This document shows, piece by piece, positions 15,066-38,300 of a stretch of DNA of 64,000 nucleotides. How positions within the stretch are numbered: position 1 is the first letter of the stretch; every line of letters begins with the position of its first letter. Below the pieces are notes generated by a model. The model did not search any database. It was not told where the DNA came from and was given only the letters and a program-made list of their open reading frames with translations. Origin of the DNA: Toxoplasma gondii ME49 (taxonomy: Eukaryota > Apicomplexa > Conoidasida > Eucoccidiorida > Sarcocystidae); contig NC_031476.1 in assembly GCF_000006565.2 (NCBI RefSeq), positions 1,698,458 through 1,762,457 of the forward strand. The letters run 5' to 3'. The translations under genes and the position numbers were made by a program.

Positions 15066-15440
15066 CTACATCACCTTTTCGCCGACCGTAACGGTTTCCA
15101 CTTCCACTGGTGCATTTTGGGGGCGTTCTGCTTCTTCGACTGGTTCCCCTGCCGCGGGGTCTACAACTTTCAGGACCGGTCGTTTTTGCAGTTTCCCTCT
15201 CTTGTCGAACATGAACGGGTAATTCTTGTCAAAGTTCAGAGAGATGGGGACATTCTCATCGTCCTGGCGGTGCAAAGGTTTCCGCTTCAAAACGACTTCT
15301 CTATTTTTGTCACGGAGCAAAAGCACAACACTAGCCACCAAGGCTGAGGCCAGAGCAAAACAGAAGATAACCACCGTTCCGCGGAAGAGCATGTCGCGTC
15401 GGTTTCGGCGAGTGTCCTCATCCTCTCCGTGCTTCACTTC
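15066..15440 (-). other. Last exon of the micro-exon gene: membrane anchor and tail
   Basis: The acceptor CTTTTACCAG precedes 15440. The exon reads EVKHGEDEDTRRNRRD, then MLFRG and the hydrophobic span TVVIFCFALASALVASVVLL, then RDKNREVV and a tail rich in Lys, Asp, Pro and Glu ending at TAG (15066-15068). Basic residues flank both sides of the anchor. It has 124 codons at phase 0, matching the phase of the upstream micro-exons. A shorter product could start at the internal Met of MLFRG. Confidence 0.8.
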
Positions 15441-18400
15441 CTGGTAAAAGAGCGTAAGACAACACAAAGAGCGAGGAGCAACGAATTCAAAAACACCGGC
15501 GACGTCGACTCAGACCGTCCCATATCAAAATACCTGCGCAGAGTCACGACGCTACGCCTATTTAGTGATGTAGGAGTGTCTGTGTATATATTCACATGCG
15601 TATTTCTCGATGTGTTTGCGGTCATGTTATGCTTCTGCATGATGAATGAGAGATAAGGAAATGCGCGGGGACAGAGGCAAAGAGGGCAGAGGACGAAGTC
15701 CCGAAAGCGAAGCACGGGATGTCACCTGAACCTGTTGAATTTAGAGGGGATGAATACGGACAGGAAAACGACAGGCAAACAGAAGTGTTGTTGTTCGCCA
15801 TCTAGGGATGCATGAATGCATGCAGAACGCTAGATTCTGCGGTGCGAGCTGACGGTGACATCGAGACACGGAGGACCTGACAATCATGCGTTTCAGGGGA
15901 AAGTTGATACGCAGAAGCGAAGAGCGAGAGTTGGGGAAAAGCTCTGCAAAGGAACAACTGGTTACGCATTCTACGAGAGGCGCAAGCAAGTTGAACTACC
16001 TACACACAGCCCTACATTGGCCGGCCCAAGGTTCCTGAGACGAAGATGGGACTACAGATAGCAAGCAGGCACCCAAGATGAATCCAGGCCAGGCGAATGC
16101 AGCCGATTTTCTTTTCGCGACACCTCCGCATGGGACTTACGATCTGACGAACCAGGAAACTTGGCAGCAACAAAGGTGTGTGTTAAGGAGGCAACAGAAA
16201 CACGGTCGGGAACATAGACAGAGAGAGATGTACAGACGGAGAACGGGAGTGGTTTAAGGGTAGGTGGATTGACAACCCTATAGATCGATTTTTGGACGGG
16301 GAAATCCAGTTACAATTATTTATGCGTCTCGGCGTCGGCGTGGCAGCATCTTCCTCGGAGCAAAGTCTCTTCACTTTGTAGCACCAGCTAATATCCATGT
16401 TGTCTCCAAGGTCCAACAAAACGCTGACGCACTGATCGACGTATAAGTGTGTCCCGAAACAATGGTTTTGGCACGTGAGAAAAAACAAACATACAAATTC
16501 ACATATGCATCCATGCGTATGCAGGGTGTCAGCGCTTTTCTGAAACTCGAACGCGTAAGCACGTCTCTCTAGAGAGTGTCTCTGGCCCTTCACGCAAGAA
16601 ACGATACCCAGAAGAAGAAATGGGAAACCCTTTGAGAGTGAAAAGAACCTTACAGACTGTGAATGTGTGAAATGAAAGGAGACAAACGGAGGACGATCGA
16701 TGGAGACAGGTTGACCTAAACAATGCATTTCTTGGAGCGTAACCTGCCACAGCCCCTTCCAAGTGCGCGAGTTGCGAGTGGCAGATGCGAAACGCAGCGC
16801 GTCTGAACTGGGGGAAAACGCTGTCTCTCGAAACCTTTGCTGCGTCCTGCCCTCAACCGTGTCTTTCGGTTTTCCTCTTCTTGCATTAATCAGATTCTTT
16901 CCTATAGGCTGTGAGTCCTTACGCGCTGCAGCAGAAGACGGTCCATCGTTGCAGATCACAAAATTTGAGTTTGCTCTCATGCCGGGGAAGGACCGGAGGT
17001 ACAGTTTGAAACGCAAAAACCGTGTTCTATTTCATCTAATGTTCCTGACCGTCCCTTATGTTTTCGCCAGACGGTCAAGAAACGCACAAAACTTGGTTCC
17101 GGTAAACAGAGACCTGCAAGATCTAATCCAGTGCAGCTTGTATACAGATGTTGGTTTTTCCCACGCTGGACACAGGGCTATGGGTATAAGGCTGGACAGA
17201 CGCATTAAATACCGGTACAGATACTTCAAGCACACCAGCATTCACATCTACACCATCTCATCTATTTATACATGTGAACGTGTGCACCTTTATGTGTTTC
17301 AACTTTATAGAGCGAAGCACAGGGTTTGAAGCTTAAGAAATAGTCAAATGGCAGGCATATGGGGCCGCTTTCTTTCAACGAGAAGCGCTTGGTCTCAGCG
17401 TCTCCTTCGTTTTTCTCAGGGCATCCCCAGCAAGAAAACCACCAGCACGCAGTGATTTTAGAGTGCAGCCGAGCGCTTCTGCTGAACACCTTCTTTTCGT
17501 CTGCACCTGAGAAGCTCAACCGTCTGCTGACAACTAGGACGATCTGGAGGTACGGATTTCCAGGTTGAGTTTCCGTTCACGGAAAAACAGGCAGATCTGG
17601 AGGCAGCGACTCGTATGTCTATTTTTCGTCAACAGGCTAATGGGGAGCCGTGGGGGGGGAGGGGGGGGGCAAAGATTGACGCGTCCATGTCTATCGATTT
17701 ATTATGGCGTGCATGAATGATAGCAACAGGGAAGTGTCCATTGTTTAGAATTCCTTTGGTGCTTCTGCCCATAATCCTCATTTCCTTTTGCGTGGAATTG
17801 GCCGTACGAGCTGAAAGGGAGAATCGGAAATCACGAAAAGACACAAGACACATAAAACCGATATTCCGTTCTCAGCGGCGCAGCCGACAAAACCTGAAGC
17901 CACCTAACCGGGAACCGTGGGACGAAGCAGACGATTGATGATTGGTGCTCCTGACGAAGAGGGACCAAGTACACGATTGTATCCGTTTGAAGTCGCCTTG
18001 TTGTAGACTCCTTTTCCGCTTGACATCTTTTTCTCTGGCGTCCCTTTGCGAACTCACAAGCTGAGCAGGATGGACAAAAAGATCTAGGCATTTGGGTTTC
18101 ACACTCTCTCTCACAAGTCTAGGTCTAATCTCAGCATTGACTAAATATAAATATATAGACGGACAACGGTAAGTGCCCGTTAGTGTTCTTTCATATCTGG
18201 TGTGTCTTGTCTGTGCACGAAAAGAATTGTTGCTCCACGCACTGCACTGATGCTGTGACACTAAGGAGTTGATTCTCATCCGCGCCCCCACGCAACAGAG
18301 ATGAGAATCACGCTGTGCGACGGCGGCTTCGTCCACATGCAAAGGCGACCATGCATACACGCTTCTCAGTTTGTTTACACAGTGATTCACACAAGTAAAA

Positions 18401-21400
18401 GAAGCACAGCTGGTGCAAAAGATAAAGGTCGGGTTGCTTAGGTCCAAAACAGGAAGACATTCCTTGTATGTGGAGAAGCCGAGGTCGTACTTCCTGAGGC
18501 GCAGAGACAGATGAGGCGCAGCTGGAAGAATACAACGTCGAATGAGCAAGAAGAATCCTGATGAAAGGGCGGCATTTCCTGAGCGAGATGGAAACGGGAA
18601 GTTCTGGTACACATATCTACATGTGCACATCTATACCAGAATCCGCAGCCGATGGCGTGCTTCGTGTCAAGCTAGAGAGGCACTGTAGACGCACACAGCG
18701 ACTACTGGTCACCCCCCGCTCCAGGTAAGCTCCCAGCGGGTTTTCCCCCGCGAATCAGGGTGATGAATCAAGTACACATTCCATCCTGTCGTCTCAGTTG
18801 TTCTTTTCTCCGTTCCCTGAGGCACTTTCCCGGAGTGTCTTACCGCCTGAAAGAGGGAGCGGCAGACAGGAAGAAACTCAATATTTTTACGCGTTCGCAT
18901 CTTTTCCATCTAGGTCAGACGAATTTCACCGCAGGGGCATCTCTCTCCAAAGAGATGGCTTCCTTTCTTTCCTGGGACCTCTCCCGTTCTTTCTTTTTCC
19001 GCGCCGCCCTCCTCCAAGCGACTACACATCCAGATCAGTCAGAATTTAACGCACGCCTGCTTCCTTTCGCGCGTTGCGCGCAAGGGTGCAAAAGAGAGAA
19101 ATGCATGGAACAGAGAAGAGAGGCGGCGGTGAGAGGAACTTCACTTTGGTCGGTCGTTTTCCTTTGCCACGCTTCTGCTTGTTGTATCTTTTCCTAGCTG
19201 CGCGGAACAGATAACCTGAGCAACTGCAAGAATCTGTCGACCTAGAGAACAGGCCGAGGACTCGCGCAAAATCAGGATGCAAGAGGCTTTTCGCCACGCA
19301 ACCTTTATTCAGAAGCCCGTTCACGCTCTGCCGTCTCTTGATGGCACCAACGTACTCGCTGGAGTGTTTAACCTCAAGGCACAGTGTGAGAGGTGGCACT
19401 CAGAAAAGACAAGCAGCCACAGCTTTCGCGCGTTCGCTGTTCAGAACCCAGTAGGAAGAACGACGCGCTGCATCACACGGACTGACAAGTCACCGCGGAA
19501 TATGAGCCGTGGTCGGCTTTTGCCGAGCACTGACTGTGCGGGAAGCTGGAAGATGCGACAAGGTTTTTCCACTGAAGAAATTGTGGAAACCTTACCATCT
19601 GCACAGAGACACCACGAAAAGCCCCGCAAAAGAAGACGCAGCAGTGGAAAGCGAAGAAAAACGTTTAAAACGGAGCCAAGCAGAAAGGCGAGGTTCTCTG
19701 GAAATCAACAGAAGATGCTCGGGCAGGAATTAGGAATGGAAGGAGAGTGGCATTCAATGCAACCCTGCAACCAGAGACGAGGAAGAAACGGGAAACGCAG
19801 GGACTGTCACGGAGGTGAGGCTTTGGGTCTGGAAGCGAACGCGGAAAACGTGTGGATTTCTATTCTCTCTGACTCTTCTCCCCCGTTGAGCTGTCTGATT
19901 GTTCAGAGAGTTATCGGCCTCTCTGTCCAGTCACATGTTCCGCCAGTTCCCATCTTACGCGCTGAGTTCCAAAAGAAAAGGTGCTCGCTAGTTCCTGCTC
20001 AGCCCAGCCGTTTTTTTCCTCCTCCTCGGTCCTCTTTCCAGGCGAGTCTCGATTTCTTTGCTCTTTTCACTCTGCACTGCTCTTGCCTTCTCCGAGGTTA
20101 AATGGATGCTCAAGACCCCAACCAATCTTACTTCCTGAGCAAAACAACCACGAGTTCCGTGTGGACGTTCGCTCCTACTATTCAGCACGAACAAACTTCG
20201 CGAGCGAGCAGGTCTCACAGAAAGAAGCGAACATATGACGCAGCACAGACGACGAAACGGAAAAAGAAGTGAGAACATCTCTGGCAAAGCCAAATAAGGA
20301 CATAGTTTTGACAAAGAAGGATACGGAGCATTATGAAACGTCGAAACAGTGATGTCCCCGACTCACATGCGCGGCGCACACAACTGCTGTGATTATCCAC
20401 CATGTAGAACTCTATACATGGCATTCATACGTATTGCATATATGAATATATATATATATAAATACGTTTATATTTGCAGATGTGCATCCATCAAGATGGC
20501 TGCGGTATTTCGCAACATGGTTTGTGGTGGGCAACGTAGAATTGGTTCTCGAAGACATCTATAGCTAGCAAGCTGCGAGGAGGCGGAAAGGTCGCGGGAG
20601 AAGATACCCTCCAAGATCATGAATTCTTCTGGTTCCTACTTTCTGGTAAACCAAGACAGACAGAAAAACCCCTGGGTCGGAGAGTGTCCACCTGCGAGAG
20701 ACCTACCGTGCGATGTTGGCAACAACGATGCGAGGGTGGTGTCAGAGGGCTGAGCATGCAAGGACTCAAAAGTCACTGTTCTTTTTACTTCTGTCCCGTG
20801 AACAATATCAGCGTTCTTCAATAGCTGCACAAATATGCATGCGCGTGCCTCGACATGCGGTTGAGAAGCTACTGATGTACATACACAGATATGTTCACGT
20901 ATCCCTTGGGTACCCCGGTGTGCACCCAGAGAACAGAGCTTCCATATTCGCTACGTTTAACCTAGAAACACGGGTGTCACGTCCTCGGGGTCAGTAACGA
21001 AAAATCCTGGGTAAGCGTAGGCTCGTCACCTGGATGATGAAAAGAAGCGACAACACTCGCGATTCTCGGAAAGGCTCTGCGACCTCTGCTTCGCGAGACA
21101 GAGTGGCAGCAACATGGCACACTCCAGCGTAGAATCCCGTCATCCATTAACACGCACGATCTTTTTCTGAAGAGGAAACAGAGCAAAATCAAAGGTGAAA
21201 AACGGACTCAGATGCGGCATAGGATACCTCCAGAACTTACACGTACACACCTTATACTGCATATGGACATTAAAGCAGCTACTCATATATATATATATAT
21301 ATATGCATGTGGATCTGCGGATGTTGTCCATGTTGTAGAGGAAGGAAATTATGTATGGAAATCACAAGTCTGTAGCGCCTTCGGGCAGCAGTATATGCAA

Positions 21401-24400
21401 GTGTAGTCCGAGTGCGATTCGGAGGAGCCGCGGCAGAGTGAACAGGCAAATCGCTCAAACTTTCCTCGGATCACATCGAGGGAGTAGGTTCTAAGGAAAC
21501 GTTATCTCATGTGGCGAGTTTCCGATCGCTGGTGGCGCGTTGTTGCTGCATGCTGCGCAAAAAGCGTGCGGCTTCTGCCATCTCCGCGTCCCTACCACAG
21601 GAAAGGGACGAGGGAAGGAAAACAAGACGGACAGGCGGAAATTGACGGTGGAAAAAACGCGTAAGAACAGGACTTGAGAGTCCTTTTTATCAAGTCTTAC
21701 GACCTGGAGGCGTGAGAAGGGTGATAGACAAGAAAGGAGACCGTCGAGCGCCTCCGAGAGCCAGTGTGTGACTTTGTTGCATGTGCCTTACAACAGAAGA
21801 AAAACTGACATTCCATGAATGAGACATTCCAGTCCTGTGTGCCACTGAATACACACAGTGGAGAAGGGAAGCTACAAAAAATACTGCCGACCGGACGTTA
21901 GTCGCGTTCCATGAATCAGTGAAGAGCAACAGCTTGAAGGTTTTGGCAAAAGGGTAGAAGACCTCGCCTACACGACAATCGTGCCAGTTTCTGGCCGGCA
22001 CATCCACTGTGGAGAGAGACCTACATGCTGTGCAGAAAATGGCGTCGCCACACATCGCCCACAGTGAAGTGTGTCTGTATATTTCTGTCTCGGTTTCCGT
22101 GTCCTCCCTTCAAACAGTGATCTACACCTAGTTCTATTGACTACCTTGGTACATGTGTCTCTACGGAATCTTACATTCGGAGCAAAACGACATTTCATAT
22201 GTCTCCTGTATCATATGGAGTGTGTCTCTGAGCCCACGAATTCAGATGGTCGGGGACTGTGGTGGACGTAGGATATCTAGGCCCTACTTCCTCCTGTAGG
22301 TTCGCGTACAAACTCGTTTCATTCCCGTGTGTCGCTCTCTGCCACCGAAACGAATTCGAAACCGGACCCGCACCCAATCCATTGTCGTTCATATGGACAA
22401 ATAGATCTCAGTCTTGTGTACAGTTACACACAACAACCTAAGGACGCCGAAGCAAAACCCAGAGCTGCCTGCGTCTCCACGTCGAGTCCTGATGTCTTGA
22501 TTGTTTTGCGAGCTCCATACGGGTAAACCCAAACACTGTTTCTGAAGGCGAGTTTCTTACGTTGCCCTGAAACCGCAAAGAACAAGCCAAACGAGGCCCT
22601 TCGGTTTCCCCTGCTCGTTCACTTCTCGCTGGCACCAAGCTACGCGCCTGCCGAGAGAGGCCAAGGCAACGCAGAAGCGACGGAAAGGACGAGTACAAGG
22701 GGAAGGTAACAAGAAGGATACAGAAAGCGAGCGCAAAGACAAACGAAGGGAAGCACCTCTGCAATGAAAATCCAAGACTTCAAAAAAGACGAACAAGAAA
22801 AACGCAGCTTCCGAACGTGGGAATGGTGGGAGAGATGTCAGGACAAATAGGAACAAAACGACGAAAAGACCTTCGGGGCAGTACACCTTTGAATGAACGC
22901 ATGTGTGGAACACTCGCAGTGTTCCGGATACTCTGTATCACAGAAACGCATGTGTATGACGTAGGAGAGAGCAAGAAGATAGAATCATGCCTCCACTGTG
23001 CAGGACAGATGGCGCGGTGGCGAGAGAGCTCAAGAGGGTGATTATTATGTACGGAGTTCGTGACGAAACGTTAACACTGCCACATTCGTATAGACACGGC
23101 TCTTGAGAACAAGTAACACTCCAACTACGCATTACTGACCTAGAAAAGATAGCTCTCCAGATAAATTGTAATCATCCCAGAGAATAAGTGCATAGATTTA
23201 TGCGATTGCAGGCGTGTGAAGCTGAAATATGCGGAAATGGTCAGAAGATTGCGATGCGGCGGCCGTACTTTCTGCGCCAGGGAAGGAAGGAGAGGCGACG
23301 GACCACAACATATTCACAAGGTCAGTTTGTGTCAGGGTCGCCACACCGGCGGAAAAAACAGAAAGTGCAGATGCGTCAGCTTGCACATTTCATCCCCGTC
23401 TAGCCTTTCCTCCCTTTGAGTAAATGACCACCGTCTTGTGCTTCCGAAGCAGTTGAAAACGAAGATATGTGTATAGTTCGATGACGGGATCAAAAATGCC
23501 GCCACAAGCAGACGTGGTCGACGGGTGTCTCAGAAATGTTGTTGGATGCACACGTAGGTAGTCGCTCCTTGAGGAGTGTCTGTGTACGGATAAAGCGAAC
23601 AGGAGAGTAGATTCGAGGGTCTGACAAAAGTGTAAGTTCTCCGATCGTATAGTGTGTGTGAGTGCCGAAAGCACAAAGAAGTCGGCGACTGGAGACGCTT
23701 CGAAGACCTCTAAGCAATGTGTTGCGTCGTCTTTGCAAAGACAAACAGAAGTTGAGGGTACTCACTAACTGGAGAGAAGCGCACACGGTCAGCGATCACG
23801 TGGATTGCCTCCAGCGTGCCACCAGTGAGAGAGTAATGCATGCCCCAAAAAACATTGAGGGTGCAGAACAGTCCGTCGAAGAAGCTGCGCGTGCAGGCGC
23901 CCCCAGAGAACCACGGCAGGACATACAGGTCAAAGCAAGCAACTGAAACGATGCCCTAACGCAAGTCACCTCAGGAGGGGGGGGGGACGTACTTCCTGAA
24001 GTGTAAAGCCAGAAGGCCGACAGCAAGCAAAGGAACGCCTCAACAACGCGATGTGCGAGAACTGCGCAGCGGAAGCAAAAGCAGGAAATCTTGCATAGAG
24101 CGCATGATGACAACTGATTCGAAGAACTCCTCGATCTCCTGCCGGCACCAAGATGCAGACGGCGGGTCGCCAGTGCTACTTTCTTTAATCCAGAACAGCG
24201 CATCTGGGAAGAGATCAAATCGAAGGACCGGCTAAGACTGTTCAGCATAGAGTTTCTGTAAAGTAGTGTGTCCTAGAAAGTGTCATTGTGATTTGGAGAT
24301 TGAGGCACGCTGTACACATCCGTTTCCAAGCTCCAATCTTCCTCGCCGCTGCAACCTGTTGTGTCTGAAAGCAGAGTGTAAATATGCATCGAAATGTCGG

Positions 24401-27400
24401 GTCTTACGGCCTAGAAGGACGAAACAAATGGAGGCAGAGGATAGAAAAGGTAGAAAGTCGCGTGGCAAATGGATATCTTGCTGAAAACATCTGTTCGTCT
24501 ATCGTTAAGGAATGCAAGCATTCATACGCCAAGGTGAGGCAGGTCTCCTCTCGTACAGCGCGTAAACGGTGAGGCTTAAATATTCACATATAAATACTTG
24601 CCCGTGGAATACGCTCGGCGACTGCGGATGTGTCCGTGGTGACCGGGTCACCTATATGCCTAGTTATGAATATATTTCGATACATTTGGGACGTCAGCAC
24701 AATCCTGTCGAGCAACCGTTGCCGCCTTTCTAACTCAAAGAAGGAAAGGGAGAGAAGAGGAGCGACGAAGCTTCGATGCATGCCGTTTGAGGACTCAGGG
24801 GCAAACGAGGCTATCGGGAAGAAAAGTCAAACGAGAAAGGGATCCACAAAAGAAAGAGCAGAAGGGAAGTGGAACTGCACACTCGCAATGACGGAAACCA
24901 GCAAGCCTGCATGCTTCACGTATCGGCACCTCCACCTGAAAACCTACTCCCTGGTAAGGCGCACACCGTGGGCTCACGGATGGTGGATAGCAGGCAGGCA
25001 TCTCTCCGAGACATGCACGTGGACGACCCTACGTTATTTGCCCTCTCTCTTTAAGGGGAAATGTAGCATGCACTGGCGTATGGTCGTCTCTGATACTTCT
25101 TGAGGCACCATGTCATTTACACAGGTCGACCATGTATCATCTACATCCGTTAATCAGAGCCATTGATATCTATTACGGCGAGCGGGATTGCATCTGTGAT
25201 CTTTCGAAGGGGTCACAAGCTGGGTGCGCAAACCCATGTGACAAAGTAAGGTGCTTGTGTTTTCTCTGTCTCTTTCTGGGTCATATTTTTCAACGAAAAT
25301 GTCAAAATGATACCTGTGCCTCGCAAAGCCCCTTCGAGTTCGTTTCTTTGGGCTTCTTACTCGTCGTTCCTTAGGAAAAACGAAAGAACACAACTACGGT
25401 AGAATATGTACCTTCGACCGCAACCAGGACACACCTGCAGTCCCGTGAGAGAAGCGATGAAAAGAGTCAATAGGAAGGAATATAGAAATGTTGCTTCCAA
25501 AACTAGACAGTGTCACGAGAGAAATGACGACTGGTTGGACACGCGAACGAGTGTATGCAAACATACTATTTACACGTATATATATATATATATATATATA
25601 CAAATCTGCTTTTCTACCGAAACAGGAAAATCAGAGTGGTATTGGACGGACAGGTAAATCGAGAAAAAGACAGCAAACGAGAGTGAAGGGGGAGACCGAA
25701 AATGCGCAGTTTAAGGGAAGAATGTACCTCCAAATGCAGACGAGACAACTAATGAATTCAGTCGATAGGCAAATACGTCGCACACATACACACTATACAC
25801 AAATTTGAATATATGCGAAAGACAAACACGTGGACTAATTGATGGATCTCGATACAGGGACAGAGAGAAAGAAGTGCTTTCCTCACAACTATCTAGACAG
25901 GTAAGTAGACAGCAGGGCAGGGAGTTATGAGAACAGAGGTTGCGATAAGAGAAATTGAGCAGATGTCAATCTCAGTGGTTCCTTCGTACCTGCAAGCGGT
26001 GAAGGACAACCACCTTGCACTTACAAGCTAAACCGAGACAGAAGGAGCGCAACACCGACCGTACAAACATGTTGCCTCTCTCAGTTCTATCTGTCTTGCA
26101 TTCTGCTTGCCTCTTCGAGGACTCTGTCTCTGTCGTTCGCTGCGCGGAACGCTCTCTAAAAGGTAGACGGAGACTTGCGTAGGAATAAGACCGACAGCGG
26201 AAAGTGAAGAAAGAATGTTGGATTTTCAGATCGCACGACAATGAAGTTGTTCCACACCGGTGATGTTCAAGACGTAATACATGGATCACTAACGAATGGC
26301 GTAAGGAGCATCTATAATTTGTGCAGTGTCACGGGAGATAAACTACAGGATAACTCTGAGGTCGATGCCGATGACCAGTGGGCAAGAGACACGAAGAGGA
26401 CAACATGCTGTGCTGAAGACGTGATGCATAAAATGCATGGGGTGTGGCTGAACAGGCCGACGGAGCTGATGCCTCAAACCACCCTTCTGCGACAGTTTCA
26501 TTTTCTCGTTTCTCGTGCGCCGATTCAAGTTGGACCTACGTCCTGTAGACAGCAAGAACAAAGAAGAGTGGACTCCAAAACAGATGAATCAAGATGCGTA
26601 GACACCGAGAAAATGGGCACACAGAAGACAGTTGCGGGCTGAGGAGAGGAGCAAGTGGCGTCAGGGGGACAGGGTCACCGGAGGGATCTCGAAACGATGA
26701 GACGAACCAGAGAAGAGAGAGGAGAGAAGAGAAAAAGGAGGTGCGAGCGGTGGAAGAAAACAGAGCAAGACAGAAGGAGAAGAGATAAGCCAGGGAGGCA
26801 CGGCAGCTAGAAGGCAACACGCGAAGGCTTCAGGGGTGAGTTGGAAAGCACGTAGCAAATACTAGCAAATGCGAGAAAGAAGCGGATGAGACAACCAAAG
26901 GAGGCCGAAAGAGAACTCGAAAGGAAAAGGGTAGCGTTCGCGAGAGATGGCCATGCAGAAAGACGAAGGGTACGTTGGCGTTGACTTACACTCTGAAAGT
27001 CCAAAAATAAAAGACACGCGATCCTTTCGATGCTGGACGAAGGACGAAACCGCGAAAGACACCAGGAGAATCATAGGAGCGTCCAACCACGAAGAATAGA
27101 CCCTCCTGGTCTCTGTGCGTGTGCATAGCAATGCATGTACATGTGTGTATTAGCGCGCATGTGCGTGAGCGTGTGAATATGTATAGTCATTCAAAGGTCA
27201 ATCGTGTACATCGGAAATTGACGGATACGCAGGGACGTTTACGAAGATGCAGCTCGGCGTGGAAGCACCATTCTCCTGTTGAAAGAGACCTCAGCAGCCT
27301 CCAACGCGCAAACTGGTATGTCGCAGGTTACCCTGAAGAAACAGAATGATGCACGAGTGAAGGAAACCGGAAGAAGAGATGTCCTTTTCGTCTTCGATGC

Positions 27401-30400
27401 GTTTTTGATCCAGCAAGAACTCTGCAGAAACAGACAGGCTTACCATCTGCAACCGCGAAATCGGACGCAAAACGCCGCGCCAGCTGAAGATGGTGTGGAA
27501 GCAGAAACGCAAGAGTGAAGAGAGGAAACTCCGTGCGACAACACTTGTACTCGTGGGAGGATTAGGAGACAGTGGCACAAATGCGAAAGCAGACAGAAGA
27601 AACATTCAACAGTGAAAGGCCAAAGCAGACGCTGAACCAAGCGCCTCGCAAAGTAACTTACGAACTGAGAAAAAAGACAGCAACGTTCGACGCTTCATCT
27701 CCGACTCCGTTCTGGTCCTCTCCCTTCACCTCTTTTCTGTTGCTGAGACAAATGGGCGGCTTTGGGAACAGTGGCGAGCAAAAACTGCTTACCTCCTGGA
27801 GGCCGCCGGAATGCAAGGAGAGTTCAAACGGACATTAGCCGACAATGCTGCGACCAGTTATCCTATCTATGGCGTATACAGTCGCGTTAGAAGAAGGTAC
27901 AGAAAAACGCAGAATCATGAACAGGGCGCTCAATGCAAGCGTACACACGTGTACATGCCTGTCTCTGCATAGATCTAGTAAGGCAGATACGGATCATGCA
28001 TCCTCTCGTTCCGTACACTGGCGGAGATTTATTTAGAGAGGCGCGTATATGAACACAAACATACACACGCACACATTTACATAATTGCCTATGGATGTGC
28101 ACAGGTGTGGAACGGCAAGATTTCATGAAAAGAGACTCGCTTGGCAGGCAGGACAGAATCACGTGAAGAGCGGTAACTTACGCTCTGAACCAGAAGAGGA
28201 TACCGACACAGAAAGACTCGGATGAGAGACAGCGTCGATGTCTCTGGCGCGAGATACTAGGTTGCTTTGCGCAGAAGGGGAGGTACGTATCTAGCAAACT
28301 CGGTCTGCCGATTTTCAATCCCTGAGAATGGTTGACAGATCTTTCGTCCTGCCGGCTTACAATCTGAACAAGTGAACAGGTTTCCAGTTGAGGACCAATT
28401 CACCTCGAAACAAAATCGATGCGTTGTTCTCTCCATGTGGAGTCGGAGACGCGGATTTTCTGCAGCGCCGTTCTCTCTCTCGCTTTCATTCGATCGCCCG
28501 CTTCCCATCATGTCAATGTGCGTATCCACTTGCCGCACCGGAATGCCCTCTAGGTTGCATTTTCGATGGAATCTGCTTTCTCTTCGCCTTAAAATAACAC
28601 GTATCTGCAGACGTATCCTTTTACGAGTACATTTTTTCGCGAGAGAGAATCCTTCATGTTTTTCTACTTGCGTCTTAATAGTATCGGCGTCCATATAGAC
28701 GCATTCGTCTGTGTGCATCTATATCTGTTCATCTAACATTGTTGTTGAGGCGCCTCTATGTTCTGCGGCAGCGGCTGGATGGTTTGACTGCAAGAAAGTA
28801 AGTTAAAGTGTAGTGGGTGAGGGAGTTGTAGAACAACCAGGGTGAAAGCCGCTTACCCTCTGTGGTGTTGGATGAAAGAAAGGAAGAAGGGAGAAGAACT
28901 GTTGCGAGAAACGGCTTGCAGTAGTTCCAACCCACATGCAGAAAACCAAGAGTTCACATGCAAAAGAACCCAAGCACCACTATTATATAGATCCACAAAG
29001 TCAACTACCTGTTTCACCAATAATTACGGAACTGATTTCTACGTGGAGTCGCTTGAATGTGCATATATATATATATATATACGTATATATCCATAAGTGT
29101 ACATATTAACATACACGTGCATGTACATATACAAACGCAGATGTATAGTCACATTCAGGCAGATATCGGTGTATCTACAGACACCTTGAGACCACACAGG
29201 AGTAATTACGCTCATATGTGTACATGCATGTGAAAGCAGAAGAAGTGTGTAGTCGGCGAGCTTGCTTTTGCGCCAGCAGGTGATTTCCTCTCCCGTCCAC
29301 TAATGAAGAGTTGCCCCTTTTCGGCTTACTTTCTGATCAAAACAAAGATACGAGTGAGTGCACAGATCTCCGAAATATGTATGTCCATGTATTTCTCGCA
29401 CCGACACAGCGGGGCACCTGAATCGTGGATCAGGACTCTCCTCATCAAAAAGAGGATTGCTTACATTCTGAGAATCAAGACCAGCCAGAACAAACCAAAG
29501 AAACGCGTGGTTTCGAGCTTTTTATAGGTCCTACTATAACGGTTGTACATGTCTGCTCCGTACATCTCGAGGGTGGTTAGCAACTCTGCAGGTACCGGTA
29601 CTCCAGATACCACACTGAAAGTTGCCTTGTATCCTTGTGTGTTAATGACTGCCGCTACACGTTTATCGAACTTGACTGGGTTATTCTACCCACATGCATC
29701 TTTCTTCTCTATTTGCCGCACCACTCGCGAGGCAGAAGGCCGAGACGGAGAAAGACGAAGGAACCAGAGGGCATCCACGAGACAGTCTGGTTCGGCGAAG
29801 CACGAAAGAGGGAAGAATATGGAAAATAAAGCAGTCTGACGGAGAGACGAGCTTACGCGCTGTTGAAAAAACGCCAGTGTGAAAATGAGGCTTGGTCCAG
29901 CTTAGTGAAGAGGCAGAGACTCGGATTCGCCATTCATGAATAAGCAAACAAATCCGCCACGAAATAGCTTCGCACTGCAACACGACGAGCATCGCGCAGA
30001 CGTCGAGTGCCATGCAGACAGAGAGAGACATCGGATGATCGAAAAATGAGTTTCAAGGTGGGCCGATGATATTATCCTGAGCAGCGGCACCTCTCTTGCA
30101 TCGCATGCAAGCGGTAACTGGAACCAAGACAGGCTCGAAAACTAGAACGACAAGGAGACGAAAGACACTGGATAATGAAATCACACATCAAAGTGAAAAG
30201 AACACTGACGTTCACCTGTTTGTTCCGCAAGACGGAGGGAGCACAGACGACACAACGATGCACCGGATAAAACGGCAGGACAGGTAAGAACAAGCAAACG
30301 TCGTGCAAAAGCGGCTTCTAACCAAGTGTCGAGTTTGTGATTTCTGTGCCACGTTCGAGAAACGAAACTTGTCCTGTTCCTCTCTCCGATGAACCCAGTC

Positions 30401-33400
30401 AAACCGCATGATGTTCCACTTACTTCCTAACAAGGCAAACGAAAATGGCGCCCACGAAGGTCGAAAGAAGATTCAAAACGAGTTTTCGCCTTTCCTCCAC
30501 GCGTTCTACGTTTCTGACTCTATGGACTGGAAATACGCCAGATCCAACTTCGACAAAAAACAGAGGCAGCCTTTGCAGGCCACAGCAACCAAATCGTGCA
30601 CCATACACGTTGTATGCACCCAGGATTGTGCTAGAATGCATACACATCTAGAAGCTACTTCCTATATCTTCATTAGTGTGCTGTTGCAGTACATGCATAG
30701 GACGTGAGGGTGAGAGGGGCGAGGCAGAGGAAGATCTTCGTTCACAGGCACTGCGGAGAAGAGCGGCCAGGTTCGATTGCGTAGGCTACGAAAAGTCTAC
30801 AGGCGTTTTACTTCAACAGCTTACCACACACACCCGTAGGCAGCAGGCAAAAGAGACGACAAGAGCGGGGTCCTACTTGGCTTCGAGATTACCAAACGCC
30901 TTACTGCTGCAGGGATCTGCGAGAAGAGACAGCGGAAAGCAGGAAGAAGGCGAGAAACATAGAGTGAATTCGAAACAGGAGCACAAGAGGAAAAACAAGA
31001 CTTTCAGCTCGGTGTGTGAACTAGCGGAAGAAGCAAACTGTCACGAAGCTGGACGACTTCTCTCTGTTGGCGTGACACGCTTTCGTCGGTTTGAGTCTCC
31101 TCCCTTACTTGAAGCTGTGAAGAGGTCAGAAGAGCACAGAGAAGACAGTCAAGTCATTTGTCTCACTCGCAACGCACACCGGACTGAAAACTGCTATCTC
31201 AGCAAATGGATCTTTTGACACAAAAAAAGAAAAGAAGAAGTGCCTACGATCTGCAAATGGCATGCCAAGCACGAGGGACAAGAACACGTTCTGAGATACA
31301 CTCCTGCTGTACGGACTGCCGAAAAAGACGCGAGGAAGTCCGCGACAGGCAAGCCAACTTGATGGTGGCGAGCCGTGCTGGCGGTCTCGGGGCACAGGGA
31401 ACATACTGTCTTGTATTTTCTCCGGAGCCCAGTCCCTTGTCTAAGTAAACATATATAGATATGTACAAAAAGGGATATTTCTATCATGCCTCAACACAGA
31501 GAGAGATGTTCAAGCAGATGTGCACACACAAATACGTGTGTGATGTTTACAAGAAACAATCAAGATAGACGTGTCTACGCCAGTATTTGCATGTATTCAA
31601 GTGTATACATGTCCCTCTGCTGCTTCTCTACGTTTCTCTCAGTTTGTTTAATCGTTTGAGCGTTCACTCGCTTCCTAAAAATAGTGTATCTCTCGGTCTC
31701 GACCGAGGATCCTTCTGGTGTCGCGTGCGTCCCTCACCTGCGATCTGTCACCAGGGCCGCAAAGACGGCATTGACCCACATTTTGTTTGCAAGCATATCT
31801 GCGTAGGTCCGCCTGGCTGCCCCATTGACGTAAAAACGTGCCAGCGTTCCTCATGCAGATGTGTGGAGGGCATATGGAGACAAAACGCGCAACAAGCCGA
31901 CTTGTTCCGTTTTCGACTTGTGCTTTCAGTGTCAGGAAGCGAAGACGCGTACTTCCTGAATCGCGCGTGCACACCTAAGTAAGACGCAGTGCGTTTGCAG
32001 AGGCCCAGGGATAGATTTTGAACTGGCCGGAAAGAATTCTTGGATCTTCGACTGCGCCCCTCAGTCAGACTCACCTCGACTCAAAGGGTATTTGACATCG
32101 ATGCCAAGCGACAACCGCCCGCAAGTAACCGATTCGCATGCTTTTTTGTCCATCTTTCCTTGTAACAGTGACGCAAACAAAAAGTGTAGATTAGCTCGGG
32201 GACGCCAAGTGCATACGTGAATCACGTTTGTCCATGGAATCATATACTTGAGTGGGAATAAATGATTATAAATATTCATTCCACATAAAGAAACCTGCGC
32301 GCATGGACAGTTTGCCTTCATGCATTATCGAACACAAAGGTAAAGCCCAAGATAGGCAAATCGCCAGATGTTCTAGTGGCTTGCCCTCTGCATTTGTTCT
32401 TGACTCATCGGCAAGGACCTACTCCCTGTTACGACGCGAAAGAATACACTGACTGCGGAACGGAATTATCAATGAACCGCAGAAGGTGCTAGGCAGAAAC
32501 AGCAGCAACGCTTCTGTAGAGTACACCGATCTCCCTTTCTGTTCCATTTCTCCGTTACTCTACTGACCTGAAGGCAACAAGTGTGTTTCGTGAATGCGCA
32601 GGACCCTTTCCTTCTTTGCCCGGAGACAGGTCTTGTCTCCCCACGCTTCTGAGTCGTTCAGGACAGAGCAGCCCTTCGACACTGGTGACAGCAAGGCAAA
32701 GATTCTCTTTCGCTCTTCGCTCCTGAGGGATCCTCAGGGTGGGAGAAGACTTCGAAATGACAGCAGTTGCCCTTCTTTCCGCGAACCAGCAGCCGATCTG
32801 TGTCTTTGTTATATCTCATGACATGTCTCGGCACTCTGTTGTACCCGCTCAGTTCGAGAACAATGGACAGAGACTGCATGCAAGTGTCCATACAACAGAA
32901 AACGGACTTACAATCTGAAGGCGCCAACAGCGATACAGACGCAGTGACGTGGTGAGAAGGGGAAGTTAAGGAGGAGCAGCAGACCATTGTGGCCAGGCTG
33001 TCCGCCACAAGCCTCTTCACGGTTCTCATGACCCGCAGTGACTAAACGCAAAACGAGAGAGTCATTCTTGGTGTCTACTGTTCTCTGTGAAATGAAACTG
33101 ACTTGCACTCACTTGCTGAGAGGAAGGGAGCAAAGTAGCAACACGAGCGAGGAGCGCTGACGGCAGCAAGGTAATCGATCTCCAGAGATAAAAGAAAACA
33201 CACGAGAACCTGGGGAAGCGTGAGAAGCGAGAGGCGGGACTGTGCACATTTTACAGCTCCACATACGCTACATTTGTTTGCCTGATCGCGACTAACGTCA
33301 ATCATTTCGCTCGAGATGCATAGCTAGGTTCTCTGTGTTGTCGTATCTGCACGAATCTCTCGTAAATACATGCGGAGACACACACCCACATGGGAAAGCA

Positions 33401-35352
33401 TATGTGTGCCTAAGCTAATGCACAAATGACCTATCTACATATATTGATGCAGGCGCGTGTACTTGAGTTATCGCGTAGGAAAAACACAAGCAAGAGACCG
33501 CAGCCGCGGTGATGGAAAAAAAGAGGCGAAGGCACCGTGAGTGTGTGCGCTGTGTGCGTGCTCTGCTGACGGGAAAGAAAAACGGATTCGACACGCATAA
33601 GGATAACAAACCACGCCAGACGGCAAACTAGAAATGAAACAAACGTCTTACCGTTTTGGCCTGAATAGAATGACAGAAAGGCCAAATCGAAGAAACCACA
33701 CAGAAATGGGTTCCTTCTTGCAGAGAAGAGGCGAGACAGGCAACACACGAAGCCAGCTCAAGAGTTGAGTCTTTCGTGCATATATGCAAGCGCAAAAAGA
33801 ACACGAGAGAAGGGGCGGCAACAATTGCCTGACGCCAGAGAGTAGAAAAAACGAACGAGGGAAATCGGAGAAAAGAAAACAGCAGACGAACAGGCATGAA
33901 CAGCGAAACGAAGAGAAGACGCTGGCAAGAAGCAGAGGGAAAACGAAGACAGGAAATGGTTTAAAGACTTACCCACGTCTCATACTGCACTCACCACACA
34001 GGGGACAGCAACAGAAGCGTAAATAAAACATAGGAGAAATTAAGGAAGACAGCTCGTGTGAAAGAAGGCGAACAGCCGCTCTCTTCCCGCAGTAGGAACT
34101 GTTCAGAAACTAATCAAAGAAGATGAAGGACTGAGGAGAAGGGAAGGAGAAGCGAAGAGAGCAATTGAGAAAGGTCAGAGAAACAAACATGATTGAGCGG
34201 GTCAGTGAAGAAAGCAGCAGAATGAGAGGAGCATGCTGACGGAAAAAGATCTGAACGCTTACAGCCTGAGGGAAGAGCATGAAAACCACGACACAGCGGT
34301 GTGAGACCCAGCGTGTACATTAAGAGCCGATACCCTCCCTTCCACAGAGGTGTGCTGGATTGTTTTTCTGTAGATCTGTCTATCGACACATATGAGTATG
34401 AGGATGTATGTATACACGTTGCACGGATGCAGGTGAGCGCCCTGAACGCAGCCGTGTTCTTCATCAAGTTTCTGCGTTTCTCGTGGGTTGTTTCTGTGCC
34501 TTTTCCCCTGTTTCATCTCGGACATGCAGACCGAAATGAGTCTGTGTTGACAACAGCAATGTTTTTCCCGGTTGTCTTGCTCTTTCTCATCATTGTGCTG
34601 CCATTCACTTGCCCCTCCACCCCCCCCCACCTTTCTTGCACGTTGTTTTCAGCCTCTCGATTGTTCATACTGTCAGCTCTTTAGGACGGGCCTGGAGAGA
34701 ACGAAAGGGCAGCAAGTGAGAATAGCTCGCACCTTTTCTTTCCCGTTTCGCTAAACGATCAGAGCCTCGTAGTGAGAGAACCAAAGGAAATATGAAGACC
34801 CAAATAGCGACGGAAAAAGGGCCAGAGAGAGAGACACAGACAAAGGGAGAACAAAGGCAGATAGGTAACCGCGAACAAAGTGTACAACGAGGTGCAGTGA
34901 CAACGACAGCCCTCCGAAAACCAGATACGTCCGGAGATATGGACTTCCCTTCTTCTACAGTTTCCACAGGGAGCCGACGAAATATTTCTCTGGCTTGTCT
35001 GCAAGCTTTGCCATGACCGTTTTCCTTCCTCATCCGCGGGACGATGAGACGCTTGGGATTCCCCTATCCTTTCGCTAAAAAAGGCTTGCATGTCCTCATT
35101 CAGCTCGCAGACGAGACTTACTTCGCCTCTGCCGCCCCTCTCGCCCTGCGGTGCGCCTTCATCTGCAGACAGAGACAGGCCAAGAACACTAGAGAAAGTG
35201 ACTAAGGCAACCAATCGCGGGATTCCAGCGTCTGCAAGCGGAGCCTTTCTCTCGTTTGCTCTGATGCCGACGATGCGACAGAGAAATGTGTGGTCGTCGC
35301 AACCAGAACGGCAAACACGCAGCTGTAAGAAGTTACAAGCGACAAGGATCAT
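15066..35352 (-). CDS. Micro-exon gene: single-pass membrane protein assembled from ~50 exons (~274 aa)
   Basis: The gene spans about 20 kb. Exon 1 is 35122-35352, the last exon is 15066-15440, and 48 internal micro-exons of 3-21 nt lie between (listed in the block entries). Every internal exon is a multiple of three and phase 0, and both end exons are phase 0 at the junctions, so inclusion or skipping never shifts frame. Concatenated, the 48 exons give 73 codons with no stop. The product should have an N-terminal part with a hydrophobic stretch, a charged and probably helical middle, then TVVIFCFALASALVASVVLL as a membrane anchor and a ~80-residue Lys/Glu/Pro-rich tail. No family is recognised. 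Seen: splice-site pairs, lengths, phase and open frame. Inferred: that most exons are joined in one mRNA. The start is ATG at 35352 with an in-frame TAA just upstream. A strong acceptor at 35323 leaves open that exon 1 is really an internal exon of 201 nt. Confidence 0.8.
15726..18846 (-). other. Micro-exon block 5 (3'-most eight exons)
   Basis: In transcript order with encoded residues: 18844-18846 A, 18491-18493 E, 18058-18060 L, 17808-17810 L, 16923-16925 R, 16654-16656 S, 16141-16143 I, 15726-15731 VQ. Each is preceded by a pyrimidine-rich tract ending in CAG and followed by GTAAGN, GTACGN, GTGAGT or, for the last, GTGACA. Examples of acceptors: CCCTCTTTCAG before 18846 and CTTCTGCTGCAG before 16925. 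A further 18-nt candidate (RRDSAQ, low end at about 15537, donor GTATTT) lies before the last exon but has a weak acceptor and is not counted. Confidence 0.7.
19596..22566 (-). other. Micro-exon block 4 (eight exons)
   Basis: In order: 22561-22566 GN, 22288-22293 EE, 22025-22027 H, 21701-21703 V, 21158-21166 KKI, 20640-20642 K, 20132-20134 E, 19596-19598 M. Donors are GTAAGN, GTAGGN or GTGCGT. Acceptors such as TTTCCTCTTCAG (21158-21166) and GGTTTACCAG (20640-20642) are strong; the one before EE is weaker. For GN, a second strong acceptor (TTTTCATTGCAG) would give a 198-nt exon 22561-22758 that stays in frame without a stop. Confidence 0.7.
21283..21304. repeat. (TA)n microsatellite
   Basis: TA run in a micro-exon gene intron, about 120 nt upstream (transcript sense) of exon 21158-21166. 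Similar runs lie near 20446-20461, 25575-25600 and 29060-29082, all inside introns of the same gene. Confidence 0.9.
23269..26992 (-). other. Micro-exon block 3 (ten exons)
   Basis: In order: 26990-26992 S, 26540-26542 D, 26025-26027 L, 25887-25892 IV, 25361-25369 ERR, 24948-24950 G, 24408-24410 A, 23993-23995 E, 23766-23768 L, 23269-23271 K. Donors are GTAAGN, GTAGGT, GTACGN or GTGAGN. The acceptor before ERR ends in AAG rather than CAG but follows a long T-rich tract. An extra single-codon candidate, 25217-25219 (L, donor GTGACC), fits the same pattern with a weaker donor and is not counted. Confidence 0.7.
27444..30916 (-). other. Micro-exon block 2 (eleven exons)
   Basis: In order: 30905-30916 IPAA, 30424-30426 E, 29857-29859 R, 29465-29467 N, 29330-29332 K, 28857-28859 R, 28361-28363 I, 28182-28184 S, 27793-27795 E, 27662-27664 F, 27444-27446 M. 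This is the densest and cleanest part: ten consecutive one-codon exons, all with GTAAGN donors and acceptors ending in CAG or TAG after pyrimidine tracts (for example CTGTCTTTTTTCTCAG before 27664). Introns are about 130-570 nt. Confidence 0.8.
31109..34691 (-). other. Micro-exon block 1 (5'-most eleven exons)
   Basis: In order: 34671-34691 ARPKELT, 34263-34265 A, 33973-33984 YETW, 33652-33660 AKT, 33113-33115 Q, 32912-32914 I, 32559-32567 VSR, 32423-32425 G, 31953-31955 E, 31248-31250 I, 31109-31114 LQ. Exon size varies most here (21, 12, 9, 9, 6 and 3 nt) and every one is a multiple of three. Donors are GTATGA, GTAAGN, GTGAGT, GTAACG, GTAGGN and GTACGC. A candidate single-codon exon at 31313-31315 (S) is only 62 nt from the next acceptor. 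Confidence 0.7.
35122..35352 (-). other. 5' exon of the micro-exon gene
   Basis: ATG at 35352 opens 77 codons to the donor GTAAGT at 35121. The product starts MILVACNFLQLRVCRSGC, has a moderately hydrophobic stretch (LVALVTFSSVLGLSLS) about residues 47-62 and ends GAPQGERGGRGE at phase 0. Two internal acceptors compete: one after CTTCTTACAG (exon would begin at 35322, 201 nt, same frame) and a very pyrimidine-rich one after GTCTCTGTCTGCAG (exon would begin at 35162, 41 nt, needing phase 1). The true 5' end may therefore lie further upstream. Confidence 0.6.
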
Positions 35353-38300
35353 TGCTTATTTTTTGGTAGAAAAGGCGCGCGTCAGCTGCCGTTTTTCAAG
35401 AACGACACAAAGATGCCTTCCGCGTTCGTCTGTGGTGAACGCGCCCACCATAGTTTCGAGTTGCAAAAAGGAAATAGAAGTTGTAAAAAAAGTGAAGATT
35501 CAGAAAGTTCGCTCAACAGTTGCTTCTCCGGTTCTTTGTGAAAACAGGCTTGAGGGACGCAGTTGCCTCCGCCGGGCACGTCCTCGGTCATCACTGACTC
35601 TTGAGTGATTATGCAGACTGACGAGGCGGTAAGAAATTTTTAAACCAGAAACACATCGAGGAAGCATACACTTAAGCGGCCGCCGTGGTGTAGTTTCTGG
35701 AAACATCGTCAAGGAGAGAAAGTCAGGAAAAGGTGTGAGCTTGCGAGTGTACACCTTCCGCACAATGGTGTCTAGAAATGCCGGGCACTGAGTCCGCCCA
35801 TGAGCAAACGCTGTAACAGACGTTGTTTGCTGCGATTGGTGAGCACATATACACGCCTTTCAACGCGAAAACAGGACTTTGGTGTAACTGGCAGATCGAC
35901 ACCGTTGTTAGGGTTACACCAAATTTGTAGGGTAGTAGGGAGGTTTGTTCAAACCGCCTTCCTGTAGTTCCCATCAGTGATGCCACCCCTCCTTTTCCTC
36001 GCGTAGCACGAATACAGAACTCAACAGTTGCAATCTCCTCCTGTCCTTCCAATTATTCTGTTCAAAAGGAAACGGCCGTACGTCGAGATATACGAGATAT
36101 GCGCTTCACGTCGGTACACATGGATACACGCAGCCGGCATCCGGTGTGTACAGCATTTACACCTGACAGATAAACGAAGGCGTCTGAGGGGATCCATCTT
36201 GTCAAAAGTAGAGAACTAATTTGGCCTGGAACGTTTTGCGAAAATGAAGCCACCACCAGAAAGGGTGGGGGTCCTGGTTTCGTGTAAGGGCTTCTGGCAG
36301 GGCCCCAGTAGGGGGCCAGTGTTACGTCAATATTTGGGACCGTTCATTGATCGATACTGCCGCAAAAAGCGATGTATTCTGGAGTGTTGTTTTCAACCCC
36401 TCAATCGTTTCCGTTTCAAGCAAATCAACTCTTCCATGGGCATTACGGTACATCGCGTCTTCCTGTCGGTAGTGGCCTACTTCGGGGGCTGGCAGCGAAA
36501 GCCTGAAAGGCAGCTGGAGCCAAACAGCCGGAGAGGAGGGCCAGGAAAAGAAGTGTAGTTTTCATTTTGCACAAACCGTGCTCGGAATCAGGGTGAATGC
36601 AAAGCGTCAAAAGGAAAAAATTGAGGGAAAAGGCATGGTCGCATGAAATTTGAGCTAGAGAAAGTGTTGATTGCTGCGTGGCACCCTCTCGGCGCATTGC
36701 ACGGAAAGGTGAGCAAACAGGGTTGCTGCGGGAAACAGCAGGAAATGATCAGGACTGAGTTCGATTCAGGCCGACACAACTCAGAATGAGCTGGCCAGCA
36801 CAGCTGGTTAGAAAATGTGTCACCAAGAAGGATGTAGTTTCCTAGGCAAACTAGCAAATTGACGCTGCCACGACCGCTGTCTGCCTCACGCCCTCTGGCT
36901 GTTTAATCGGCTCCTGCCAGTCCCATGTGGCTGTGCTAGGAAGAGCCTCGAAAGAGACACCGAGACTCATATAATGCTCTGCATTCCTGGTCTTACTGTC
37001 CCCTCTGACAGCTTATCTTTGTCTTACAGTCCTTTCAACAGAAATTACGCGTGTTTATTTTTAGATTAAGCCCCATATTTTTAAGGAAGGTATCTTCCAG
37101 TACTACCCGTTACGGCAACGGCAATGTCTTGCCCAACACCGGCGGGTTAAGGCTTAGGAGATGTCCATTAGTGTCGTCGGAGTCAATCTGATCTGTCCGT
37201 GTACAGCACTTCGCCACATTCTCGTACCACCATTATTTTCGCTATAAGTTGAACAGTAAAGCCGAAAAACGGAGATACGAAAGTGTGGTGGACCACAGGC
37301 ACCACAGGGTCAACACCCAGGTTAGTCGCAGCTAGTCAGTGGGACCACCATCATTTGAAATAGACAAGCCGAAACAGCAGAGTGGAAGCTTAGAAGCGAC
37401 CATACGTCGCAAAAAAGTTTAGAACATTCCCTAAGGTCGCTAGTCATCGTTCATTTAGCAGACGCTCCAGGGGGGTAGCTGTTTGTATGGCAGTCCTTCC
37501 TCGGAGTAGCCACTCAGTATCGAAACAACACATGTGCATTCCTCCTAATCGTTTAGGGGGACAATTCTTTCACAGATCTTGTGACAAACAGTCCGTGACT
37601 ACATAATTGCGGCACCCCGCGGCGCGTCGATTCTCGGGAGTGACTGTATCGGTTGTCCGAACTAGGCTTTTGAGCCGGACGCCCAGAAGGGAGGGCGGTA
37701 TCAGGTGTGTCTGCGTCGATAGTAGTAACTGGTTGAAACATGGTTTTTTCACATCGGGACAACAGAAGAGAGAAGAATGGCCCTCGAGGGCTCCCTCATC
37801 CAAAACGAAAAGTAGACTAAACTCACGGCTGGCTGAGGTGTCGTCGCACCTCTACATGACGTGCAAATGCTTGCTAGTGTGTTTCCACCAGCGTAGCGGA
37901 AAAACAATCGATCAGGTTTCCAGTAGTCCTTGTCTCGCACCCTTCCTCCCCATCAGTTGAGAAGAAAACCACCGCTGCTGTTCAATAGCCGGTAGAGGAG
38001 TTGGTACTGGAGGCGTAGGGCGTTTTAGCCCCTTCCTCACAGGAATCAACAACGGCAAAACTTTACGGAACACCGCCGCTGCTCCCACCCGTGCTGCAAT
38101 TGTCACTGCCCACAGCTGCTCCTTGAAAAGGCACAGACTGCAGAGAACGCCTGTTGATTCTTGGTCTAAAGCTGCAGTGAGTTAGCTGGACAAACGCACA
38201 ATCCCGCCCCATAGAGATGTGCTTTACTATCAAGTGCACGGCGTTGTCTCTTTCACGGCTGTGCCAATCAAACATGCAGTACGCGACCGCAATTCCAGCA

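Follow-up and report, generated by a model that had tools for sequence, protein, structure and literature searches.

A probable Toxoplasma gondii gene with about 45 successive micro-exons, mostly of one codon, and similar chains at other loci

A stretch of 64,000 nt from Toxoplasma gondii ME49 (contig NC_031476.1, contig 10 or C10 in the genome searched here, positions 1698458-1762457), called the window below, was analysed. On its minus strand, between 36.6 and 15.1 kb, there very probably lies one protein gene containing a row of about 45 micro-exons; 38 of these are one codon long, and stepwise splicing under intron definition would join the micro-exons in frame. An earlier note had claimed a chain of consecutive micro-exons for this locus; as far as DNA goes, the claim is supported by controls for chance, strand and spacing. 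The note overlooked the probable signal-peptide exon and the fact that such chains form a class in the genome. T. gondii probably has a class of genes whose exons are largely single codons, with at least four chains on four contigs, whose messages would be ratcheted together codon by codon. This class appears largely unannotated, presumably because gene finders and read aligners handle 3-nt exons poorly. Directly observable are the motif, its restriction to one strand and one spacing, the intron-sized gaps, the lack of in-frame stop codons and the recurrence at three or more other loci.

For the first count a site was defined as a pyrimidine-rich YAG, a block N and a donor GT(AAG, GAG, ACG, AGG, ATG), and all spacings of 0-30 nt were counted. 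The counting of acceptor-exon-donor units at every exon length ran without a frame or stop filter. On the minus strand of the window locus 34 sites were found at spacing 3, and every other spacing gave 0-3. The same pattern yielded one site at spacing 3 on the plus strand and 0, 0, 0 and 1 in four flanking strand-segments. With a second, hand-set score, 31 acceptor-NNN-donor sites reached at least 4 on the minus strand between 15.4 and 35.2 kb compared with one on the antisense strand. At a score of at least 3 the locus held 37 sites, whereas 40 dinucleotide-preserving shuffles gave a mean of 1.4 and a maximum of 4. The recurrent acceptor/3n/donor motif described earlier for the minus strand is thus confirmed by the chance, other-strand and other-spacing controls.

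The genome (65.28 Mb, 1959 contigs) was searched for the pattern YYYYYYNCAGNNNGTAAG, which occurred at 63 places compared with 30 for a reversed-pattern control. Eighteen of the 63 matches fell into five same-strand clusters: three in the window (C10), four on C3, five on C9, four on C14 near 2.06 Mb (C14a) and two on C14 near 7.05 Mb (C14b). An identical-copy pair on C817, 20 kb apart, was left out. A GTGAG pattern gave 67 matches (control 43), eight of them within four known clusters, and no new cluster. The 4-nt version of the pattern occurred at 24 places, none in clusters (reversed control 60), the 6-nt version at 38, two in clusters (reversed control 50), and a 12-nt pattern gave 16 matches, none in known clusters (control 31). 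A looser pattern had fewer matches than its reversed control (156 versus 226); only its clusters were used, taken from the matches listed, up to contig C12.

A frame-neutral chain model, in which phase 0 is assumed, was applied to the window and the four other clusters. It returned 45 exons with a score of 210 for the window, 172 exons (158 of 3 nt) with 659 for C3, 43 exons with 197 for C9, 84 exons (43 of 3 nt, 24 of 12 nt) with 396 for C14a, and 27 exons with 61 for C14b, the weakest of the five. On the opposite strand the score was 1.3 or less at all five loci. Four chains together comprise 344 micro-exons, 269 of them single-codon, and 158 of these belong to one chain.

In a cross-locus run the splice-site weights were taken from C3, C9 and C14a, three loci on other contigs; their independence is imperfect, as these chains were first started from weights that included the window. 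The run gave 45 micro-exons from 34265 to 16141 on the minus strand (38 of 3 nt, two of 6, three of 9 and two of 12) and a score of 185 versus 0.3 on the opposite strand. All 45 exons were identical to those of the model trained with the window included. The earlier count of 48 micro-exons, 36 of them single-codon, was right within a few. The introns between the 45 exons measure 128-882 nt (median 438); the spacing given before was about 130-1900 nt. Four of 49 hand-assembled micro-exons (34691-34671, 25892-25887, 22293-22288 and 15731-15726) are weak and lie outside the model chain.

Exon lengths and stop codons were considered at four loci together. With the hand-set score, 194 sites of length 3 were found on the sense strand versus two on the antisense strand. 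Among the sense-strand lengths of 1-30 nt there were further 13 sites at 6, 14 at 9 and 26 at 12 nt and 0-5 elsewhere, while the antisense strand had 0-4 at every length. Lengths 6, 9 and 12 thus amount to 53 sites versus six at the eight adjacent lengths not divisible by three. Multiples of three alone would fit any phase, and the frame assignment therefore rests on the stop counts. None of 253 single-codon sites with a score of at least 3 is a stop codon, with 8.5 expected from local trinucleotides, and none of 271 with a score of at least 2.5 (9.1 expected). When the 253 codons were strung together, the two other frames contained 10 and 14 stops in 249 codons; therefore phase 0, the frame of whole codons, is the one free of stops. 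In free-phase models the chosen exons were multiples of three in 41 of 43 cases in the window, 117 of 124 in C3, 37 of 39 in C9, 70 of 73 in C14a and 7 of 7 in C14b. The free-phase and free-length models were rejected; they had filled gaps with long or frame-shifting exons.

The single-codon sites also fit a coding model better than the intron background (z 4.5), the model being trained on one long window open reading frame (assumed coding) and the last exon. Alanine and leucine are in excess at these sites, and serine, cysteine and phenylalanine are in deficit. Adjacent single-codon sites less than 100 nt apart do not occur in the window (6.1 expected, at least one in each of 2000 simulations) and occur once in C3 (42.1 expected, minimum 28 in 2000 simulations); C9 and C14a have none either (4.0 and 5.1 expected), and there zero also arose by chance. 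In C3 (p 0.003) and C14a (p 0.0025) helical periodicity was stronger than after shuffling of the exons. The most hydrophobic stretch showed no excess over shuffled order in C3 and C14a and a weak one in C9 (0.033) and C14b (0.011).

A signal-peptide exon at 36565-36481 and a second exon at 35162-35122 likely open the gene; both lie outside the range covered before. Exon 1 has its ATG within GTGCAAAATG, and by eye the encoded peptide resembles a classical signal peptide. Its phase-1 donor GTAGGC (log-odds 3.66, top 6.1% of 1445 GT) joins in frame with a strong acceptor ahead of 35162. An alternative start is the ATG at 35352, whose frame is open into exon 2; its 63 codons look less coding (log-likelihood ratio -1.7 versus 0.3 and 4.7 for the two exons). 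At the other end, the joined micro-exon frame runs into a last exon of 124 codons containing a single hydrophobic stretch and a charged tail, and this transmembrane exon, 15440-15066, likely ends the gene. It has one exact place in the genome; the next match (E 0.04) is not convincing. The exons are as follows.

36481..36565, minus: putative, likely first coding exon, signal peptide MKTTLLFLALLSGCLAPAAFQAFAASPR, phase-1 donor GTAGGC, start context GTGCAAAATG
35122..35162, minus: likely second exon EGAPQGERGGRGE, phase 1 in, phase 0 out, donor GTAAGT
34671..34691, minus: 21-nt exon ARPKELT, weak donor GTATGA, outside model chain
34263..34265, minus: micro-exon GCT (A), chain model
33973..33984, minus: micro-exon YETW, chain model
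33652..33660, minus: micro-exon AKT, chain model
33113..33115, minus: micro-exon CAA (Q), chain model
32912..32914, minus: micro-exon ATT (I), chain model
32423..32425, minus: micro-exon GGA (G), chain model
31953..31955, minus: micro-exon GAA (E), chain model
31248..31250, minus: micro-exon ATC (I), chain model
31109..31114, minus: micro-exon LQ, chain model
30905..30916, minus: micro-exon IPAA, chain model
30424..30426, minus: micro-exon GAA (E), chain model
29857..29859, minus: micro-exon CGC (R), chain model
29465..29467, minus: micro-exon AAT (N), chain model
29330..29332, minus: micro-exon AAA (K), chain model
28857..28859, minus: micro-exon AGG (R), chain model
28361..28363, minus: micro-exon ATT (I), chain model
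28182..28184, minus: micro-exon AGC (S), chain model
27793..27795, minus: micro-exon GAG (E), chain model
27662..27664, minus: micro-exon TTC (F), chain model
27444..27446, minus: micro-exon ATG (M), chain model
26990..26992, minus: micro-exon AGT (S), chain model
26540..26542, minus: micro-exon GAC (D), chain model
26025..26027, minus: micro-exon CTT (L), chain model
25887..25892, minus: possible micro-exon IV, outside model chain
25361..25369, minus: micro-exon ERR, acceptor AAG, chain model
24948..24950, minus: micro-exon GGA (G), chain model
24408..24410, minus: micro-exon GCC (A), chain model
23993..23995, minus: micro-exon GAA (E), chain model
23766..23768, minus: micro-exon TTA (L), chain model
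23269..23271, minus: micro-exon AAA (K), chain model
22561..22566, minus: micro-exon GN, chain model
22288..22293, minus: possible micro-exon EE, outside model chain
22025..22027, minus: micro-exon CAT (H), chain model
21701..21703, minus: micro-exon GTC (V), chain model
21158..21166, minus: micro-exon KKI, donor GTGCGT, chain model
20640..20642, minus: micro-exon AAA (K), chain model
20132..20134, minus: micro-exon GAA (E), chain model
19959..19961, minus: micro-exon CGC (R), chain model
19596..19598, minus: micro-exon ATG (M), chain model
19356..19358, minus: micro-exon CGA (R), chain model
18844..18846, minus: micro-exon GCG (A), chain model
18491..18493, minus: micro-exon GAA (E), chain model
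18058..18060, minus: micro-exon CTT (L), chain model
17808..17810, minus: micro-exon CTC (L), chain model
16923..16925, minus: micro-exon CGC (R), chain model
16654..16656, minus: micro-exon TCT (S), chain model
16141..16143, minus: micro-exon ATC (I), chain model
15726..15731, minus: possible micro-exon VQ, poor donor GTGACA (log-odds -1.75), outside model chain
15066..15440, minus: likely last exon, 124 codons and stop, EVKHGEDEDT..., transmembrane-like stretch, then charged tail

The 52 exons assembled by hand add up to 717 nt of coding sequence, and the product would be a type I membrane protein of about 238 residues whose middle part is charged and helix-like. Peptides diagnostic of joined micro-exons would be TQIGEILQIPAAER, ISEFMSDLIVER and ISEFMSDLER for the window and ETLQFLGIVPLLYPELFPR for the C3 chain. 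Searches of Pfam with four assembled proteins and of NCBIfam with three (the window's left out) gave nothing convincing; the only Pfam family listed for the assembled window protein had an E of 0.16, below its cut-off. Compared with the PDB at E <= 10, neither the window protein nor the C14a protein had a match.

The protein assembled from the C14a chain matched a hypothetical protein of T. gondii, TGRH88_059680 (265 residues). Over the whole length the match is weak (E 1.2, 59% identity over 23%). TGRH88_059680 maps exactly onto the C14a locus in stretches of up to 46 residues, and it contains TLSVPQFLQTMPTVVQGL, that is TLSV-PQF-LQTM-PTV-VQGL, the joined translation of five consecutive C14a micro-exons in order (12, 9, 12, 9 and 12 nt at 2051187, 2051638, 2052006, 2052154 and 2052693). 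Exact genome mapping places four of these five, the three-residue PQF being under the match limit. The model may be only a gene finder's guess; we regard it as weak evidence of splicing, though it was produced independently of the present analysis.

Several observations weigh against a single gene spliced in this manner. The first and the last links of the chain rest on weaker splice sites. The chain model assumes phase 0; with the phase left free, 28 of 43 window exons were put in phase 2, and the path through the window included a 16-nt filler exon. Helical periodicity was not significant in the window (p 0.085), in C9 (0.88) and in C14b (0.53), and hydropathy segregation in the window was no better than with shuffled exon order (p 0.73). 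The assembled window protein had no homologue among 2692 candidates at E <= 1, and when its last exon was fused to the C3 chain, this chimera had none among 7999 scored at E <= 10. Outside the five micro-exons named above, TGRH88_059680 runs through model introns as longer exons.

We considered three alternatives to a constitutively joined chain. First, the micro-exons could be coding but alternatively included, as frame-neutral codon cassettes that give rise to many protein variants, comparable to exon skipping in schistosomes. We consider this improbable. Every model micro-exon has a length divisible by three, and skipping any combination of them would leave the frame intact; exon skipping is mentioned for schistosome micro-exon genes (PMC7046203). 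On the other hand, among the kinds of alternative splicing in T. gondii and Plasmodium falciparum exon skipping is the least common, with less than 3% of alternatively spliced genes (PMC8561664), and the helical periodicity in C3 and C14a, absent at the other three loci, argues for a fixed order and set of exons.

Second, the sites could serve as ratchet points in the removal of a single very long intron, the 3-nt blocks being mostly absent from the mature message, as is the case for the zero-nucleotide recursive sites of Drosophila. The motif pairs resemble recursive sites, and with a mean of only 4.5 introns per T. gondii gene (PMC8561664) a 19-kb intron might need such help. Sites of zero length, with YAG directly followed by GT, are not enriched, however (one sense, two antisense), and blocks excluded from the message would have no need to lack stops in just one frame or to have lengths divisible by three. 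We therefore take this alternative to be still less probable than the first. Third, chance motif density or a decayed gene with dead splice sites is hardly credible: the lack of an annotated homologue would fit, but the excess over the shuffles, the same pattern at other loci and the absence of stops among 253 codons speak against it, whereas the splice-site strength of the chain is no independent argument against decay because the model picks strong sites.

Under the preferred reading of one gene whose micro-exons are all joined in frame, the splice signals deserve attention. The exonic consensus AG before the donor is found in only 9 of 269 single-codon exons, which suggests that the recognition information lies in the introns. 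A C precedes the AG in 93% of 215 strong sites, together with a pyrimidine tract, and 260 of the 269 single-codon exons have the donor GTAAG, GTACG, GTGAG or GTAGG; these frequencies describe rather than prove, the sites having been chosen by a score that favours such letters. An exon of 3 nt offers no room for complexes recognising both ends simultaneously. With only 3 nt between acceptor and donor, two spliceosomes cannot sit on them together; each intron would accordingly have to be recognised across itself (intron definition), and the introns would be removed in succession, not simultaneously. Every micro-exon would then act like a ratchet point of recursive splicing at which a single codon is kept.

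Schistosome micro-exon genes consist of a signal peptide and central micro-exons, the latter mostly of 6-36 nt. Many consecutive internal micro-exons are likewise found here (45 in the model chain, predicted from DNA), and a signal-peptide exon is likely, by eye, for the window gene; none is established for the other three chains. As in schistosomes, the proteins lack outside homologues (PMC7046203). The schistosome exons are longer, however, whereas 38 of the 45 in the window chain are one codon, and the organisms belong to different phyla. The aphid bicycle and megacycle genes also have very many small exons, nearly all of one phase (PMC9168663). The 118 exons of the M. sacchari megacycle gene span about 100 kb and encode 2092 residues (PMC9168663), about 18 codons per exon compared with about 1.3 in the chain. 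The bicycle phase is 2 and that of the chain is 0, in keeping with the stop-free whole-codon frame, although the free-phase model favoured phase 2 for most window exons.

Exons too small for exon definition are spliced elsewhere, for instance a 3-bp exon of Drosophila homothorax (PMC7392893) and a 1-nt exon of Arabidopsis APC11 (PMC4674806), and two adjacent micro-exons of 5 and 12 nt were shown as an example from rice (PMC8831610). The single-codon and 1-nt exons are single cases, not dozens in succession as in the chain. For the Arabidopsis exon a combined intron-definition and recursive model was proposed, and the view of the earlier note, that exon definition fails on 3 nt and that splicing of the chain is intron-defined or stepwise, would fit it (PMC4674806). 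Recursive splicing likewise has acceptor and donor back to back and removes the intron stepwise (PMC5126111); in contrast to its zero-nucleotide exons, every step in the chain would retain a codon, and there is no excess of zero-length sites. Among the matches listed from open-licence papers, none described one-codon exons in series, and the terms 'microexon', 'small exon' and 'short exon' are all absent from the main text of a T. gondii direct-RNA study (PMC8561664).

As for the origin of the chains, the uniform phase-0 introns do not match the expectation for random insertion into an old coding sequence, which poses the question of how they arose. With introns of phase 0, each codon could have been added as a frame-neutral unit, and the chains may have grown either through 3n exons newly arising within phase-0 introns or through the duplication of units made up of an intron and a micro-exon. 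On C14, at 7.0433-7.0446 Mb, an array of about five tandem copies of 248 bp with similar introns was found, in which each copy contains a candidate 9-nt exon (ATTCAGGAA, once ATCCAGGAA) with the donor GTGAGG. This array is possibly a young stage of micro-exon birth through duplication of an intron-exon unit. No intron similarity within the chain was detected at four of the five loci (E <= 1e-4), and because these other four chains lack it the duplication origin stays a suggestion.

If spliced as drawn, more than a hundred 3-nt exons in one chain with little exonic consensus would be an extreme case for the spliceosome, and stepwise intron-defined splicing would become directly testable. The chains would also add missing proteins to the proteome of a well-studied parasite and would mean that standard annotation overlooks a whole gene architecture.

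The C3 chain lies at 812-854 kb on the minus strand and spells an alanine/leucine-rich, probably helical protein; it may extend past the examined ends and comprise more than one gene. Its tentative identification as a TrmD tRNA methyltransferase (PDB phmmer E 0.0045 with the first chain version) was later dropped: there was no NCBIfam match and no TrmD family in Pfam for this chain. A contiguous TrmD exon (PF01746, E 7.7e-12) is located at C13 2045300-2045545, separate from the C3 chain. The C14a chain lies at 2.044-2.073 Mb on the plus strand, its exons prefer the lengths 3 and 12 nt, which alternate in blocks, and its product has, by eye, hydrophobic, membrane-like stretches.

In the window, long open frames adjoin the chain gene at 45421-47151 and 44810-45316 on the plus strand and at 41607-43076 on the minus strand. 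None of seven proteins from neighbouring open reading frames, one of them the chain gene's own last exon, matched a Pfam family at E <= 0.01. The 18-mer CCTTTTACAGCCTGTAAG was found at eight places (C1:5167, C3:3404, C7:3641799, C14:29048, C63:1976, C789:15871, C795:27374 and C815:5171). Several copies are near contig starts or on high-numbered contigs, and it resembles a piece of a dispersed or subtelomeric repeat.

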